A stretch of 5,002 nucleotides of DNA from contig JAEORY010000341.1 in assembly GCA_016840645.1 (NCBI GenBank), positions 1 to 5,002 on the forward strand, read 5' to 3'. Positions 1 through 5,002 of this stretch are shown piece after piece (positions within the stretch are counted from its first letter, which is position 1; every line of letters begins with the position of its first letter). The translations under genes and the position numbers were made by a program. The notes beneath the pieces are model-generated. The model saw nothing but the letters and a program-made list of their open reading frames with translations, was not told the origin of the DNA and did no database searches. This DNA comes from Candidatus Borrarchaeota archaeon (GTDB lineage Archaea; Asgardarchaeota; Sifarchaeia; Borrarchaeales; Borrarchaeaceae).

Positions 1-407
1 GGGTTGTTCATGGTGAGTATCTCCACCACATCCAGGTTTTCATTAAATACATGATGAATGTAAGAGGAGTTAACGATGTAGTTAAATCCGGCAAGGGTGC
101 CGTAAATGGCAGTATAAATAATTGCAGCAGTCAAATGCCCCTTCTGGTCCTTTTCTCCCAGGGAGATTGATGCAGCAATAAACTTCACAAATCCTATCAG
201 TAAAACAAATCCGAAAAGGATAGAAATTGAATGGACCTTATGGTAGGAAGAAACATATTGATTAATGCCGTTCCATGGGGGGAGTGGTTCAAACCACTGG
301 ACTATAAGGACTGAAAGTGGCCCGAGTACTGTGGCTATTATTACTATTAAGCATGAAACTTTTAGATTGTACAGTTTCACGCCTGATGATCTATTTAATG
401 ATTCCAT
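1..407 (-). CDS. Multi-pass membrane protein, unassigned family (3' end outside window)
   Basis: An uninterrupted minus-strand frame opens at the ATG at 405-407 and runs off the left edge, giving 135 full codons plus a final proline codon cut after CC. The product looks like an inner-membrane protein. Hydrophobic stretches lie at about residues 15-38, 59-80 and 92-112, with a short polar segment (GEKDQKG, 84-90) between the second and third. Several aromatic residues and histidines (YHKVHS, 55-60; YIHHVF, 116-121) flank the helices. The visible part ends in a TMNNP motif. The start lies inside the preceding DUF4199-like gene (17-base overlap), which suggests translational coupling and membership of the same operon. 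A purine-rich AGAAGG sits only one base from the ATG, too close to be a good ribosome binding site. I do not recognise the family with confidence. The membrane assignment is secure; the function is unknown. Confidence 0.8.
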   Translation of the reverse strand, partial: MESLNRSSGVKLYNLKVSCLIVIIATVLGPLSVLIVQWFEPLPPWNGINQYVSSYHKVHSISILFGFVLLIGFVKFIAASISLGEKDQKGHLTAAIIYTAIYGTLAGFNYIVNSSYIHHVFNENLDVVEILTMNN

Positions 408-897
408 GCCTTCTTCTTGTAAAAAAAATTGAAATAAGTAGTGAGCTTGCAAAGCCAATGAGTGTAAGCAATATCAAATTGCTAAAGGCTATTGAGCCTG
501 TGGTCAGACTAGATTGGAGATCGTTGGTCAGCGCTTCGATCTCAGCTCCCGTTAAACCAACACTTCTTTTCAGCAACAATGCAGTTCTGGCTTCTTCAAT
601 GAAGTCTGTATAGATGAATGTAATTGAGATCAGATTATAGAAGGAATATATGACTCCACATAAGAATCCTACGATGGATCCAGGGAGTACCAGCTTCCAA
701 AATCTTGATACTCCTGAGTTTGAGGAATAATAATTGATAGCTGTATATATGAATACAATCAGGACAGCGAGGCTGATTAGTATACTCCAGGACTCGAAAT
801 ATATCCCGGAATAGTACATGATAATTCCACTTAGCACCTGAATGAGGCCTGCATAGACCCCAAATGCAAGAATGCGCCTAGGTAATTTGTGTTTCAT
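391..897 (-). CDS. DUF4199-like four-helix membrane protein
   Basis: The 168-residue product has four hydrophobic segments, at about residues 9-32, 36-57, 68-92 and 136-159, and a basic C-terminal tail (TRRRHGIIK). The architecture matches DUF4199 proteins of Bacteroidota: two N-terminal helices, a third helix rich in Gly and Tyr (GFLCGVIYSFYN, 77-88), then a soluble segment beginning YTDFIEEARTALL (96-108) and a Thr/Glu-rich helical stretch (GLTGAEIEALTNDL, 114-127) before the last helix. Length fits that family (roughly 160-180 residues). DUF4199 has no established biochemical role, so none is assigned. The start ATG follows the stop of the small upstream gene by 28 bases with no promoter-like box between, so co-transcription is likely. 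No Shine-Dalgarno is visible, as is usual in this phylum. The family call rests on remembered pattern, not on a profile search. Confidence 0.85.
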   Translation of the reverse strand: MKHKLPRRILAFGVYAGLIQVLSGIIMYYSGIYFESWSILISLAVLIVFIYTAINYYSSNSGVSRFWKLVLPGSIVGFLCGVIYSFYNLISITFIYTDFIEEARTALLLKRSVGLTGAEIEALTNDLQSSLTTGSIAFSNLILLTLIGFASSLLISIFFTRRRHGIIK

Positions 898-925: not shown

Positions 926-1195
926 TTATTTTCTATTGGGCATTTCCCCGGACTTGAATAAGGTGGCTCCGTTTTTATCCAGCAACTCCACAGAAAGCAA
1001 AACAAGGTTCAAATCCCTGATTCTTTCAATTAGTCCATGCAGCGCAGATTGATCAATATAGGATCCGGTGAGAATGGTATGCTTCCTATCATGGATGGTT
1101 GTACTGTCCCTTGAATAATCAGACCAGTCAAGATCTATTTGCTCTTGAATTACGATCCGATATTTTGAAGCCAAAGGTGAATGACTGAAAACCAT
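926..1195 (-). CDS. Small conserved soluble protein, LTGxxxDQxALHGLxxxIRDL family
   Basis: From the ATG at 1193-1195 the product is 89 residues with no signal peptide or membrane helix. It reads as a compact alpha/beta domain. An N-terminal strand (YRIVIQEQIDLDWSDY, about 12-27) precedes a strand-helix-strand unit with the signature LTGSYIDQSALHGLIERIRDL and then LVLLSVELLD. I recognise this signature, usually LTGxxxDQAALHGLLxxIRDLxLxLxSV, from uncharacterised small proteins of Bacteroidota, Chloroflexota and other phyla, often beside transcriptional regulators or membrane proteins. Its biochemical role is not established. The frame stays open upstream to a GTG at 1246 (106 residues), with another ATG at 1225. 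I prefer 1195 because the GTG lies inside a dyad operator, the -7 promoter box (1213-1220) lies downstream of both alternatives, and the family domain begins after residue 1195's codon. It is the first gene of a likely three-gene operon. Confidence 0.85.
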   Translation of the reverse strand: MVFSHSPLASKYRIVIQEQIDLDWSDYSRDSTTIHDRKHTILTGSYIDQSALHGLIERIRDLNLVLLSVELLDKNGATLFKSGEMPNRK

Positions 1196-1212: not shown

Positions 1213-1240
1213 CAAATTTATACATGGCCTCTATGCACAA
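1213..1240 (-). promoter_or_regulatory. Bacteroidota-type promoter of the small-protein operon
   Basis: On the minus strand, TTG (1240-1238) is followed after 17 bases by TAAATTTG (1220-1213). The latter is an exact match to the -7 consensus TAnnTTTG of the Bacteroidota housekeeping sigma factor, and the spacing fits the TTG/TAnnTTTG pattern described for Flavobacterium. Transcription would begin near 1207, leaving a leader of about 12 bases before the ATG at 1195. The TTG begins two bases downstream of the 1243-1258 dyad, so an activator there would touch polymerase. The placement is inferred from sequence alone. Confidence 0.55.
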
Positions 1241-1242
1241 CT

Positions 1243-1258
1243 TCACATGAAAATGTGA
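1243..1258 (-). promoter_or_regulatory. Candidate operator, copy 1 (TCACAT-N4-ATGTGA)
   Basis: This is a perfect 6-bp inverted repeat, TCACAT and ATGTGA, around a 4-base spacer (TTTC on the minus strand). It matches the dyad at 4130-4145 in both arms and spacer length. Reading towards each target gene, 17 of 19 positions agree including flanking A residues. It lies 21 bases (from the end of the 19-base block) upstream of the TAAATTTG box, so its centre is about 43 bases upstream of the predicted transcription start. A dimeric activator is the natural reading; the neighbouring LuxR protein is the best candidate, by proximity only. Confidence 0.6.
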
Positions 1259-1302
1259 TTCTCGAAATAATTTGAAAGAGGAGGTAAGAAATCTTACTGT
1301 GG

Positions 1303-4059
1303 CTAAAGTATTCCCATTTCTTTCGCCACAGCTATAGCCTGTGTTCTGCTGTTTGTCCCGAGTTTAAGATTCAGGTTTTTTGTATGGGTCCTTATTGTAT
1401 TAATGGAAACGAATAGTTTATCGGCAATTTGCATGTTGGTCAGGCCCTCTGCAATCAACTTAAGTACTTCAATCTCCCTGGGGCTGGGATAATCTATACC
1501 TGTTTTGCTTTCACCTGACTGATTGAAACGACTGAAATGGATAAGAATTCTTCTGGTGTATGCAATCACCTCGTTGTTGGGACTTGTTTTATTGTCGGCT
1601 CTTAAATCCTCTAATAAGAAGCTCATGAGTGTTGCCATATCATTCCCCTCATCACAGAATAGGCTCAAATATCCAATCGGCAATGCCATTTGAATTGCCC
1701 GTATCAATTCCTCCTGAGCTTCTGACAGAAGGTTTAATTTATAATAGCAGATGGATTTTAAAACGGATAGTTCCAGTTTTCGGGATAACAGATCTTTATT
1801 TTTAATCGCCACCTCCAGTATGTGAATAGTGTCGATAGCCTCTGAATATTTTTTCATTGCTATAAGGTATCTCGCGTATAGGGTATACTCGAGTTCATTC
1901 CCATCGACCCTAATATCAGTAGTATTAAGATTAGAAACTACCCACATATTAACTGCCCCTAAATCTCCCTTAATAAGTGAAGATCTGATTCTCCAACCCG
2001 TAATTATCTTTTCAGCCCAGGGTGGTATAAATCGTTCTTTAATTATGGATTCGATTTTAGTAAGCGCTTCATCAGCTTCTTCAATTCTTTTAAGTCCCAG
2101 CCTTACTCTCAGGTAACAGTGATAACTCCATGAAAGCATAGTACCATCGTATCCAATATTGGACATTTGAATTCCATCCCTGGTATGTATGATGGCCTTT
2201 TCAATCTCGCCCTGTTCGCAATAAGACTCCCCAAGTATGGAATGTGAAACACCTGCATATATACTTTCAGATAATCCATTCCTACTTAATAATTCAATAA
2301 GAGATTTACAGAGATTTACAGCCAACTCCAGATTACCACTATTCCTGTAATTAACCGCAAGTTTAATGCTTGAGATAATAGTAAAATATAGTTTATTTAG
2401 TTTCTTGCTACTTGTAATAGCTTCTAAATAAGACTCTGAAGCCCTGTTAAGTTGACCCGACATGGAATAAGCATCACCCAGAGCAAGAGAGGTTAATCCC
2501 CTCCACAGAAAGTTTTCTGCTGATAGCTTAATTAGTGCCTGTTCTGCAAGCTTTATTATTGATTCCGATTCCCCTTTATAGGAAGAAAGTAGAGCTTTGA
2601 TTGCCAGTATTTTTCCGAAGAACTCAGTCTTAATTCCCTCGATGTCTATATCCTTTGATATTACACTGCTTGCTTGATGTTCATAGTTTATTATTTCTGA
2701 GTTCTCTTCAACATAAGAAAGAAAGTCCTCTGATTTTTCAACCTGCCCATTGGCCAAAATTACCCAGAGATAGTAGATGCACAAATTTGGCATCTCTGCT
2801 ATTCTCCTGTCGGACAATAGATCAAACCATTTGAGCAAATTATAGTGTGCTCCAGACTCCCAGTATTGTTCAACAGTTTTCTCCAGCAATATGGCAGCCT
2901 TCTCCGGGACCTTCCCAGCAAAATAGTGGTTAATCGCTTCGTCAATTCTTCGGTTCTCTTCGTACCATTCAGCAGCTCTATGATGAAGAGTAGATTTGAG
3001 TGATGGGGATTCTGATTGTAATTTGCTGGATAAGAGGTCAGAGAAAAGTTTATGGTATCTGAACTCCTTTCCCTCATCATCCACCCGGAAAATCAGCAAG
3101 TTTGATTTTAAAAGTTCTTCCAGAATGGCGTCACTATTGTCTGAACCTGTTATTTTATCGCACAGTGGTGCAGAGAGCTGATCCACTATGGAGGTCTGAA
3201 TAAGGAAGTGTCTTATGTAATCTGGCTGAAAAGCCAATACCTCTTCCACCAGATAATCTGCAATATGAAGATTGCTTCCTTCAATTGATTTATGAAGTTT
3301 TGTTAATTCAGGTTCTTTTCTCGCTGATAACCTGATAAGTTGTAATCCGGTAACCCAACCTTCTGTAATAGATTCCAGCAGTTGTAATTCATTGGGAGAT
3401 TTTTGTAAATCAGTGTATTCCTTAAAAAATTCAATTATTTCTTCCTCTGAAAATCTTAAATCACTGGCCCTAACTTCTGAAAGCAAATTTTTGCTTCTCA
3501 ATCTGGCAAAGGGAAGTGGCGGGTCTGACCTGCTTGATAGGATGAGTTTAAGATTTCCAGGAAGATTGTTTACCAGAAACGATAACACATCATGAATCTG
3601 CTTCGCGCTAATAACGTGATAATCATCAAAGACCAGATAGACCTCACTTTTGAGCTCCTCCATGTCATTTAATAATCCGATAATAACTGCTTCAGGATTA
3701 ACTGCCTGGGGGGATAACAGCATATCGGCCAGATGCTTCCCTATATTCTTATCCACCGTCTGAAAAGACTTGATCAGGTACAAAAGGAAGTAACTAACGT
3801 CGTTGTCGGATCGATCAAGTGAATACCAGGCTACCTGTGCTCTGTAATTATTCAACCAGCTTACTAATAGTGTTGTTTTTCCATATCCGGCAGGTGCTGA
3901 TACAATTGTGATTGGCTGATCTTTACTACTATCCAACCTCGATAATAGCGATTTCCTTTCGATGGTATTTGGTGATAATGCCGGAAATCTAAACTTAGAG
4001 CTCAGGAAAGATCTTATAATACTCGATTCCTCTTGCTTGTTAGCCTTGGTCGGAGCCAT
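1303..4059 (-). CDS. MalT/LAL-type LuxR family transcriptional regulator (STAND ATPase)
   Basis: The 918-residue product is close in length to E. coli MalT (901) and is a large ATP-binding LuxR regulator acting in the cytoplasm. The N-terminal STAND NTPase has Walker A in APAGYGKTT (55-63), Walker B in YLVFDDYH (141-148) and the family motif SSRSDPPLPFARLR (175-188) followed by DLRFSEEE (200-207). A winged-helix segment follows with FRYHKLFSDLL (333-343). Residues of about 355-800 are helical TPR-like repeats, the usual ligand-sensing arm of this class. The C-terminal GerE/LuxR helix-turn-helix covers about 857-918 (SPREIEVLKLIAEGL, then NTIRTHTKN and RTQAIAVA). Family knowledge predicts ligand- and ATP-dependent oligomerisation that activates promoters; the ligand cannot be told from sequence. 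MalT itself is not implied: no maltose genes are nearby. Start ATG follows an A-rich leader without Shine-Dalgarno. Flanking promoters carry matching dyads that it may bind. Confidence 0.95.
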   Translation of the reverse strand: MAPTKANKQEESSIIRSFLSSKFRFPALSPNTIERKSLLSRLDSSKDQPITIVSAPAGYGKTTLLVSWLNNYRAQVAWYSLDRSDNDVSYFLLYLIKSFQTVDKNIGKHLADMLLSPQAVNPEAVIIGLLNDMEELKSEVYLVFDDYHVISAKQIHDVLSFLVNNLPGNLKLILSSRSDPPLPFARLRSKNLLSEVRASDLRFSEEEIIEFFKEYTDLQKSPNELQLLESITEGWVTGLQLIRLSARKEPELTKLHKSIEGSNLHIADYLVEEVLAFQPDYIRHFLIQTSIVDQLSAPLCDKITGSDNSDAILEELLKSNLLIFRVDDEGKEFRYHKLFSDLLSSKLQSESPSLKSTLHHRAAEWYEENRRIDEAINHYFAGKVPEKAAILLEKTVEQYWESGAHYNLLKWFDLLSDRRIAEMPNLCIYYLWVILANGQVEKSEDFLSYVEENSEIINYEHQASSVISKDIDIEGIKTEFFGKILAIKALLSSYKGESESIIKLAEQALIKLSAENFLWRGLTSLALGDAYSMSGQLNRASESYLEAITSSKKLNKLYFTIISSIKLAVNYRNSGNLELAVNLCKSLIELLSRNGLSESIYAGVSHSILGESYCEQGEIEKAIIHTRDGIQMSNIGYDGTMLSWSYHCYLRVRLGLKRIEEADEALTKIESIIKERFIPPWAEKIITGWRIRSSLIKGDLGAVNMWVVSNLNTTDIRVDGNELEYTLYARYLIAMKKYSEAIDTIHILEVAIKNKDLLSRKLELSVLKSICYYKLNLLSEAQEELIRAIQMALPIGYLSLFCDEGNDMATLMSFLLEDLRADNKTSPNNEVIAYTRRILIHFSRFNQSGESKTGIDYPSPREIEVLKLIAEGLTNMQIADKLFVSINTIRTHTKNLNLKLGTNSRTQAIAVAKEMGIL

Positions 4060-4094
4060 CTTTTTTTAAACCAAAGAATACAGGTTGCAATAAC

Positions 4095-4102
4095 CAAATC
4101 TA
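4095..4102 (-). promoter_or_regulatory. Candidate -7 box of the LuxR-type regulator gene
   Basis: TAGATTTG on the minus strand is an exact match to TAnnTTTG, 35 bases upstream of the regulator's ATG. That predicts a transcription start near 4089 and a leader of about 30 bases. No clear TTG lies at the expected distance upstream, so the -33 part is weak. The dyad at 4130-4145 would be centred about 48 bases upstream of this start, so the regulator could also control its own gene. Confidence 0.4.
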
Positions 4103-4116
4103 TTGAATAAAACTTA

Positions 4117-4152
4117 GATGAGGATAAAATCACATCTTTATGTGAACTCATC
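4117..4152. repeat. Outer inverted repeat GATGAG/CTCATC enclosing operator copy 2
   Basis: GATGAG (4117-4122) and its exact complement CTCATC (4147-4152) flank the inner dyad at 4130-4145. Their centre (4134.5) is 3 bases off the inner centre (4137.5), so the two do not form one symmetric element. They could form an interrupted hairpin or be coincidence. Nothing equivalent flanks copy 1. Confidence 0.3.
4130..4145 (+). promoter_or_regulatory. Candidate operator, copy 2 (TCACAT-N4-ATGTGA)
   Basis: This is a perfect 6-bp inverted repeat with spacer CTTT, in the divergent gap between the regulator and the hydrolase. In the direction of the hydrolase it extends to AATCACATCTTTATGTGAA, matching copy 1 at 17 of 19 positions. 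The CAATTTTG box begins 21 bases after this 19-base block, exactly the distance seen at copy 1. The site could serve the hydrolase promoter, the regulator's own promoter, or both. Confidence 0.6.
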
Positions 4153-4167
4153 CCGGTTAAAACAAGG

Positions 4168-4175
4168 CAATTTTG
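4168..4175 (+). promoter_or_regulatory. Candidate -7 box of the serine hydrolase gene
   Basis: CAATTTTG matches TAnnTTTG except for C in the first position. The place where a -33 TTG would stand (4148-4150) reads TCA, so the core promoter looks weak and likely to need an activator. A start near 4181 gives an A-rich leader of about 14 bases before the ATG at 4196. The box was accepted mainly because its distance to the dyad equals that of the better box at 1213-1220. Confidence 0.4.
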
Positions 4176-4195: not shown

Positions 4196-5002
4196 ATGGA
4201 CAAACTGAATCCACTTAGCCGCGTTACACCCCAGCCAGGGAGCCTTCATTCCATAATCATCTTACTATTAACTATATGTTTGCTTAGCATATCATGCAGT
4301 AAAGACAATCTTGACGAGATAGAGCCCCTTTCTGAATTGTCTGAGATTATTGATTCAACGCTAAATGCCAGCATCCAGGAAAATGATCCTGGTATTGTGA
4401 TTGCTGTCGTTTACAATGGAATGCCTACTCTTAAGAAGGGCTATGGTATGGCGAACATTGAAAATGATATTCCCGCCGACCCGGATACTCCTTACTATAT
4501 TTGCTCTATCTCTAAATCATTTACTGCAGTTGCCACCTTAATTTGTCAGGAACAAGGTTTACTAAATGTGAACGATAAAATAAACGAGTACTTTCCAGAA
4601 TTTCCTGAAGAATGGTCTCAAATTACTATTCATCAGCTTCTTGTACATCGTTCAGGTATACCAGACTGGATAAACGATCTTCTGTATTACCCTGATGGAA
4701 TTATTAACGAAGAAGCAATACAGCATGTTCTTGACAACAGCGCGTTAAATTTTGAGCCAGGAACAGAATGGAAGTATTGCAATACGGGTTATACCATACT
4801 TGCAGAATTGATACAAAAGGTAAGTGGTAAAGCTTTTGAGACCTTTGTTAAGGAAAACATTTTTGACCCTCTTAACATGACCAGTACCCTGTTTTATAGT
4901 GAGGATTCACCTGAAATTCTGGACAGGGCTATTGGTTATGCCGCAGATGGAAGTATCTCTGATTATACGCTAAGGACAGTTGGCAGTACTGGGGTAATTA
5001 CT
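4196..5002 (+). CDS. Lipoprotein serine hydrolase, beta-lactamase class C/DD-peptidase family (3' end outside window)
   Basis: The frame is open from the ATG at 4196 to the right edge, giving 269 residues. The N-terminus is a lipoprotein signal: hydrophobic IIILLLTICLLSISC with lipid-accepting Cys34. The -3 residue is Ser rather than the usual Leu. SKDNLDE follows the Cys and resembles the acidic export signal that sends Bacteroidota lipoproteins to the cell surface. The catalytic domain shows SxxK as S104-I-S-K107 inside YYICSISKSFTA, the LLVHRSGIPD motif (148-157; usually HTSG), and YxN as Y194-C-N196 inside FEPGTEWKYCNTGY. The third motif (KTG or HxG) would lie past the edge. Visible GSTGVIT (263-269) fits the segment just before the DL-W region of this family. 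Members include esterases, D-aminopeptidases and peptidases; the substrate cannot be read here, and true beta-lactamase activity is not implied. It is divergent from the regulator gene. Confidence 0.93.
   Translation, partial: MDKLNPLSRVTPQPGSLHSIIILLLTICLLSISCSKDNLDEIEPLSELSEIIDSTLNASIQENDPGIVIAVVYNGMPTLKKGYGMANIENDIPADPDTPYYICSISKSFTAVATLICQEQGLLNVNDKINEYFPEFPEEWSQITIHQLLVHRSGIPDWINDLLYYPDGIINEEAIQHVLDNSALNFEPGTEWKYCNTGYTILAELIQKVSGKAFETFVKENIFDPLNMTSTLFYSEDSPEILDRAIGYAADGSISDYTLRTVGSTGVIT

Follow-up and report, generated by a model that had tools for sequence, protein, structure and literature searches.

The 5,002-nucleotide stretch of contig JAEORY010000341.1 analysed here (the window) carries two exact copies of the palindrome TCACAT-N4-ATGTGA, one on each side of a gene for a MalT-like transcriptional regulator of the large ATP-binding LuxR-type (LAL) family. 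The two dyads are very probably the operator of the regulator encoded between them, from which it would activate both neighbouring transcription units. Such a local regulon had been put forward in the original prediction, and it now draws support from the recurrence of comparable dyads beside related regulators and from a covariation between half-sites and recognition helices, two comparative signals that point to binding by this protein.

Dyads and promoter boxes in the window

The features concerned lie as follows:

1213..1220, minus strand: TAAATTTG, a promoter box of the Bacteroidota -7 type, separated from dyad 1 by 22 bp (consensus published in PMC9723704, as excerpted)
1243..1258, minus strand: dyad 1, TCACAT-N4-ATGTGA, predicted operator of the small-gene operon (exact match; recovered as dyad, 22 bp and box)
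1303..4059, minus strand: MalT-like LAL transcriptional regulator, 918 amino acids (Pfam TPR_MalT, 6.5e-49; GerE, 1.8e-17)
4095..4102, minus strand: TAGATTTG, a perfect box facing the regulator gene (dyad 2 at offset 43 by subtraction, 4145 minus 4102)
4130..4145, plus strand: dyad 2, TCACAT-N4-ATGTGA, between the divergent genes, predicted to serve as operator for the serine-hydrolase gene and perhaps for the regulator as well (exact match; offset 38 to CAATTTTG)
4168..4175, plus strand: CAATTTTG, a -7-like box that differs from TAnnTTTG at one base, with a 22-bp gap to dyad 2

Scanning the whole window returned exact dyads at 1243-1258 and 4130-4145, where they had been predicted, and no third copy within 3 mismatches elsewhere in the 5,002 nucleotides, in keeping with the earlier remark that none was seen by eye. 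The raw count is in itself uninformative at this threshold, because shuffled sequences then give a mean of 3.36 matches (at least two in 177 of 200); the weight rests on both copies being perfect. There are 22 perfect palindromes in the window with 6-bp arms and a spacing of 0-12, the TCACAT one being the only one present twice, and a repeated palindrome of this kind appeared in just 3 of 300 dinucleotide shuffles. Read towards their targets, the dyads agree at 17 of 19 bases (AATCACAT-YTTY-ATGTGAA), as had been counted before. In both cases 22 bp separate the 16-bp dyad (21 bp when measured from the 19-base block) from a box of the form (T/C)AnnTTTG, namely TAAATTTG and CAATTTTG; the equal gap had been noted before. 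The second box departs at its first base from TAnnTTTG. Taken together as TCAC-N8-GTGA-N22-.AnnTTTG, dyad and box occur twice in the window and in none of 300 shuffles, which agrees with the claim that the match is hard to explain by chance.

In Flavobacterium psychrophilum, the TAnnTTTG box is placed at -12 to -5 by the available part of PMC9723704. If the boxes of the window lie likewise, the dyads would, because of that placement, occupy -50 to -35 with a centre at -42.5, close to the 43 bases upstream of the start that had been proposed. Dyad 1 lies 47 nt past the last codon of the regulator; dyad 2 is in the divergent region and therefore also upstream of the regulator's own start, with a box offset of 43 instead of 38. 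A centre near -42.5 is a usual place for LuxR-type activators. This position is one reason to consider it unlikely that the same operator serves a regulator which mainly represses, or that dyad 2 is chiefly autoregulatory. Such an arrangement would fit the position of dyad 2 upstream of the regulator's TAGATTTG, a box closer to TAnnTTTG than the hydrolase's CAATTTTG. However, the offset of 43 to TAGATTTG contrasts with the 38 found in six Bacteroidota regions, and the MalT palindrome of Actinoplanes, similarly placed, is described as activating in the excerpted source (PMC7567727). Autoregulation through dyad 2 is possible, but an offset of 43 falls outside the common geometry.

The dyad beside related regulators

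Does the arrangement recur next to other members of the family? LAL regulators are abundant (3076 relatives among 7996 candidates scored), and 15 Bacteroidota regulator 3′ regions, from 13 sequences with the window included, were compared. In six of them (the window and loci L029, L040, L098, L103 and L104), a TCAC-N8-GTGA-like dyad follows the LAL gene exactly 22 bp before.AnnTTTG, the thresholds having been set after these six were known. The same pair at gaps of 5-21 or 23-39 was found in none of the 15 regions, and no dyad at gap 22 arose in 500 shuffled sets. The spacing had been seen in the window, L029, L040 and L098 before L103 and L104 were obtained; because these two are near kin, their sequences count as about one independent confirmation. 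In a quick tree a branch with an SH-aLRT of 99 has the six site-bearing regulators, and L102 with them, on the same side, and the branch of the window regulator is long (2.0 changes per column). Because of this length, and judging by the tree, the 22-bp spacing has outlasted deep divergence. Five other Bacteroidota regulators keep the frame and the 22-bp gap; the exact dyad is present in none of 152 other loci.

L081 carries a variant dyad, TCATCC-N3-GGATGA. It too lies 22 bp ahead of CAAATTTG, and its arm is that of the published Actinoplanes site. Additional half-sites can be made out by eye: in L098 (4186-4290, TCACCC) and L081 (near 4012-4041, TCATCC) a direct one precedes the dyad by about 13 bp, and in L103, L104 and L029 an ATGGGTG occupies offset 26-32, between dyad and box.

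A T-run comes after the dyad in L029, L040, L098 and L081, and these dyads could also act as terminators of the regulator genes; those of the window, L103 and L104 have no T-run. These T-runs speak for dyad 1 being a terminator or RNA hairpin at the regulator's 3′ end, with dyad 2 a coincidence, and so does the folding of the L098 and L029 stretches, which is better than that of shuffles (z -4.55 and -2.32). Yet the fold is not unusual at dyad 1 of the window (z -0.79) or at L103 (z -0.49), the L103 and L104 dyads do without a T-run, dyad 2 sits between two divergent genes, and a terminator has no need of a fixed 22-bp distance to a promoter box. We regard this explanation as extremely improbable. 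As a candidate terminator dyad 1 was also rejected directly, no terminator-like site being found between window positions 1100 and 1400.

The operator reading extends to more distant relatives. An alignment scan confirmed at least 569 of them, and among the best 80, which were kept, a gene of the window's small-protein family lies near many regulators; in part of these 80 loci that gene is preceded by a 16-bp palindrome resembling TCACCA-N4-TGGTGA, whose outer TCAC-N8-GTGA frame is that of the window dyads. The 3′ regions of 94 regulators contain 21 dyads scoring at least 10, against 1.37 expected per shuffled set, and all 21 are 15-121 nt past the regulator end. Nineteen non-Bacteroidota sites, picked at a score of at least 9 and by eye, align as TCACCACATGTGGTGA, seven bases, and a third half-site TCACCACAT in direct orientation, with TA at offset 39 in 18 of them (CA in L044) and a T at offset 44 in all 19. 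Run on 86 sequences (the window and 85 loci), a 58-column model of these sites yields 23 matches above 12 bits, against none on one shuffle of each strand. Nineteen of the matches are the training sites themselves; the new ones are in L013 and L030, together with second sites in L008 and L073, both outside Bacteroidota, which come about 0.9 kb after the first and before a membrane-protein gene.

The set was then enlarged to 138 unique regulators, 137 with enough flank; part of this later sampling was queried with site-bearing regulators, and the element counts are not frequencies in nature. A score that names no half-site, and is built from self-complementarity, a direct repeat at +23, TA at 39 and T at 44, reaches 16 or more in 29 of the 137 regions and in none of 50 shuffled sets. 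The full element (16-bp dyad, third half-site, -10 element and fixed spacing) follows 30 of 34 regulators whose helix-turn-helix (HTH) is of GP type, from Chloroflexota, Bacillota, Actinomycetota and Cyanobacteriota, and 0 of the 103 others scored. These 30 include L038, which scores 15 and was kept by eye, and a looser GP pattern gives 30 of 35; L005 was left out of the table, its score of 15 having come from an AT-rich stretch and not from its dyad. In L030, one of the four GP-type misses, the site is on the opposite strand, ahead of a small gene transcribed divergently.

Twelve whole genomes, chosen for holding a site-bearing locus or a near one, contain 19 TCACCA-N4-TGGTGA sites (0 to 4 each, in 10 of the 12), compared with one for a reversed control pattern. 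Fifteen of the 19 were examined as loci: nine are at a LAL gene and one (L090) is beside a small-protein gene. The genes that follow the sites encode the small protein and multi-transmembrane proteins, of which those with a Pfam match belong to DUF4386, DUF2306 and DUF6326, the others having none; L073 has one methyltransferase-like gene after its site (by eye). In Desulfobacterota, L004 and L005 combine KTHLKN helices with TCACCC-N4-GGGTGT and a -10-like hexamer at offset 37-38 (by eye).

Recognition helices and half-sites

Half-sites change along with the protein. TCCCC occupies both dyad arms for 6 of 6 regulators with a [GA]LST recognition helix and for 0 of the 24 others, four of which have a C there in one of three half-sites. 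In the quick tree a minimum of two changes is needed between the TCCCC/[GA]LST type and the other, since L073, from a cyanobacterium, sits apart from the five Chloroflexota rows. Since related sequences are not independent, the covariation is evidence from about two events, not thirty, and the Fisher p of 1.7e-6 for the table, which ignores kinship, is not relied on. In Bacteroidota, the KTHLKN regulators of L029, L098, L103 and L104 go with TCACCC, and L040 (KTRLKD) with CCACCC; no dyad is shown for L102 (KTRLKD). The window regulator has the recognition helix SINTIRTHTKN and, in the HTH alignment, is of TN and not GP type. We give an even chance to the broader proposal that these pairings (S.NT with TCACCA, [GA]LST with TCCCCA, KTHLKN with TCACCC, IRTHTKN with TCACAT) form a phylum-spanning DNA code of MalT-like LAL regulators, written in 16-bp dyads at fixed distance and governing a recurrent module of small protein and multi-transmembrane proteins, in which the small protein possibly feeds back on the regulator.

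The dyads could instead be operators of another factor encoded elsewhere, for example of Crp/Fnr or TetR type, their adjacency to a LAL gene being incidental. Everted Crp-like half-sites make up TCACA-N6-TGTGA, and no copy of the exact dyad was, as said, seen beside other LAL regulators. Against this, the 16-bp frame turns up repeatedly next to LAL regulators, in Bacteroidota as in four other phyla, with a near-equal spacing to the promoter, and the half-site changes follow the LAL recognition helix, which together make a foreign factor quite improbable.

A number of observations nevertheless weigh against assigning the dyads to the regulator between them, the absence of the exact dyad from other loci being one. 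The window falls outside the three-half-site class of LAL promoter: its HTH is not of GP type, the third half-site (direct, +23 from the dyad start) is absent at its sites, and the 58-column model finds no match in it. The 16-bp element is absent from 9 of the 15 Bacteroidota regions, among them L102, despite 73% identity between its regulator and the L040 one, and no dyad was found at L012, whose helix is KTHLKN. Five of the 15 TCACCA sites examined are at neither a LAL nor a small-protein gene. A single-protein scan of genome contigs gave no relative of the window regulator, and the best 80 of the alignment scan are 28-34% identical to it, none being close; in one group of 395 Bacteroidota genomes, with at most two candidates per genome, one reaches E≤1e-130 (the centre genome itself) and four reach E≤1e-70. 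Finally, no published binding or expression test of the window dyads was found in the literature searched.

The regulator, its neighbours and the proposed circuit

With 918 residues, a STAND-type ATPase N-terminus, a MalT TPR region and a C-terminal LuxR/GerE HTH, the regulator has the make-up of the LAL or MalT-like class (about 900 residues, STAND NTPase, MalT-type TPR, C-terminal LuxR HTH). The P-loop APAGYGKT can be read in its sequence, and residues 19-382 match the E. coli MalT structure 8bob (1.2e-56). It scores 421.5 against the MalT equivalog NF003420, below the NCBI cut-off of 537, and by Pfam no gene of the window resembles those of maltose metabolism. In the database the nearest protein is P0059, listed at 100% identity; it differs from the window regulator at 3 of the 918 residues, including one in the P-loop region (P56S). 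Elsewhere in the family, a short contig of L010 (Marinilabiliales) carries LAL regulators in a tandem array, one member with an in-frame stop.

The nearest published parallel is the MalT operator of Actinoplanes sp. SE50/110, an activating TCATCC-5nt-GGATGA palindrome supported by deletion and overexpression mutants, whose 3′ end lies 34.4 ± 1.0 nt before the transcription start site (PMC7567727, excerpt). The two systems share a LuxR-family MalT-like activator, a palindrome with 6-bp arms and the placing of sites in the region of the regulator gene. If the box is at -12 to -5, the window dyad would have its 3′ end at about -35, against 34.4 there. They differ in arms (TCACAT, not TCATCC), spacer (4, not 5), phylum and targets. 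The supposition that a defined operator for a MalT-like regulator in Bacteroidota would be new needs narrowing, since a palindromic MalT operator was already known from Actinoplanes; what sets the window apart, in sequence, are its arms and spacer. E. coli and Klebsiella MalT, of the same protein architecture, have as box GGGGA(T/G)GAGG, a repeat of the GGA(T/G)GA core (quoted in the same excerpt), and neither this box nor the Actinoplanes palindrome is what the window shows in its TCACAT/ATGTGA arms with N4. MalY is among the proteins that keep E. coli MalT inactive (PMC10427625, in the part available). Streptomyces SARP-LAL and LAL regulators belong to the same large ATP-binding LuxR-type family (PMC5930380 and PMC9628970, in part), but the SARP-LAL proteins, going by the title, bind heptameric direct repeats, and their targets are others. 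The sequences TCACCACATGTGG, CACCACATGTGGTG, TCACCANNNNTGGTGA and TCACATNNNNATGTGA appear in no paper of the literature searched, most subscription papers being outside its coverage, and LAL operators of this kind or the small partner protein were not found in it either.

The genes around the regulator are:

3..407, minus strand: further membrane-protein-like gene, running off the window (open reading frame; hydrophobic stretches by eye; no Pfam family above cut-off)
391..897, minus strand: DUF4199 membrane protein, probably in the same operon as the small gene (PF13858, 1e-10; 28-bp gap to the small gene)
926..1195, minus strand: small conserved protein of an unnamed family, 89 amino acids (start at ATG 1195)
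4196..5002, plus strand: serine hydrolase of beta-lactamase fold, running off the window (PF00144, 2.1e-50; lipobox-like signal LSISC by eye)

This layout of small protein, DUF4199 and another membrane-like protein resembles that of relatives. The start of the small gene was set at ATG 1195 because a 75%-identical relative, P0002, is 89 amino acids long, and dyad and box then lie outside the gene; the database version P0001 starts upstream, with 99 amino acids, and would overlap the promoter box. The small protein has no match in Pfam, NCBIfam or PDB (the last at E≤1). Its family, with the core DQAALHGLL..RDL.L.LLSV, trails LAL regulators across phyla, and a member lies within 700 nt after 58 of the 138 regulators. 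The DUF4199 search gave two proteins, without taxonomy. The hydrolase reading frame is open from ATG 4118, ATG 4196 being the probable start. Relatives of the hydrolase occur in nine other loci, some kilobases away from LAL genes, and the 58-column model has no match before them; nothing is concluded from their distribution. As to drug resistance, none of the 25 families shown of 48 reached its NCBI cut-off for the hydrolase, a protein truncated by the window end, and PADLOC gave no more than weak matches.

In the circuit that we propose, a regulator dimer would read the TCACAT/ATGTGA half-sites through its C-terminal LuxR HTH, at about -50 to -35, and would activate two promoters with a Bacteroidota -7 box. 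The first would serve the operon of small protein, DUF4199 and membrane protein downstream of the regulator gene, and the second the divergent gene for the lipoprotein-like serine hydrolase. Class-II-like activation from -42.5 at -7-box promoters appears the most economical mechanism. By analogy with MalT, ATP and an inducer may control the regulator, and the small protein would perhaps exert feedback on it.

Abundant as LAL regulators are, the papers found describe operators for few of them. The sites predicted here are concrete, have a fixed promoter geometry, in Bacteroidota as in four further phyla, and come with a testable helix-to-half-site code and with targets for an orphan small-protein family. 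The way in which these little-studied regulators read DNA may thereby be put to the test, in binding assays that are possible without knowing the signal.

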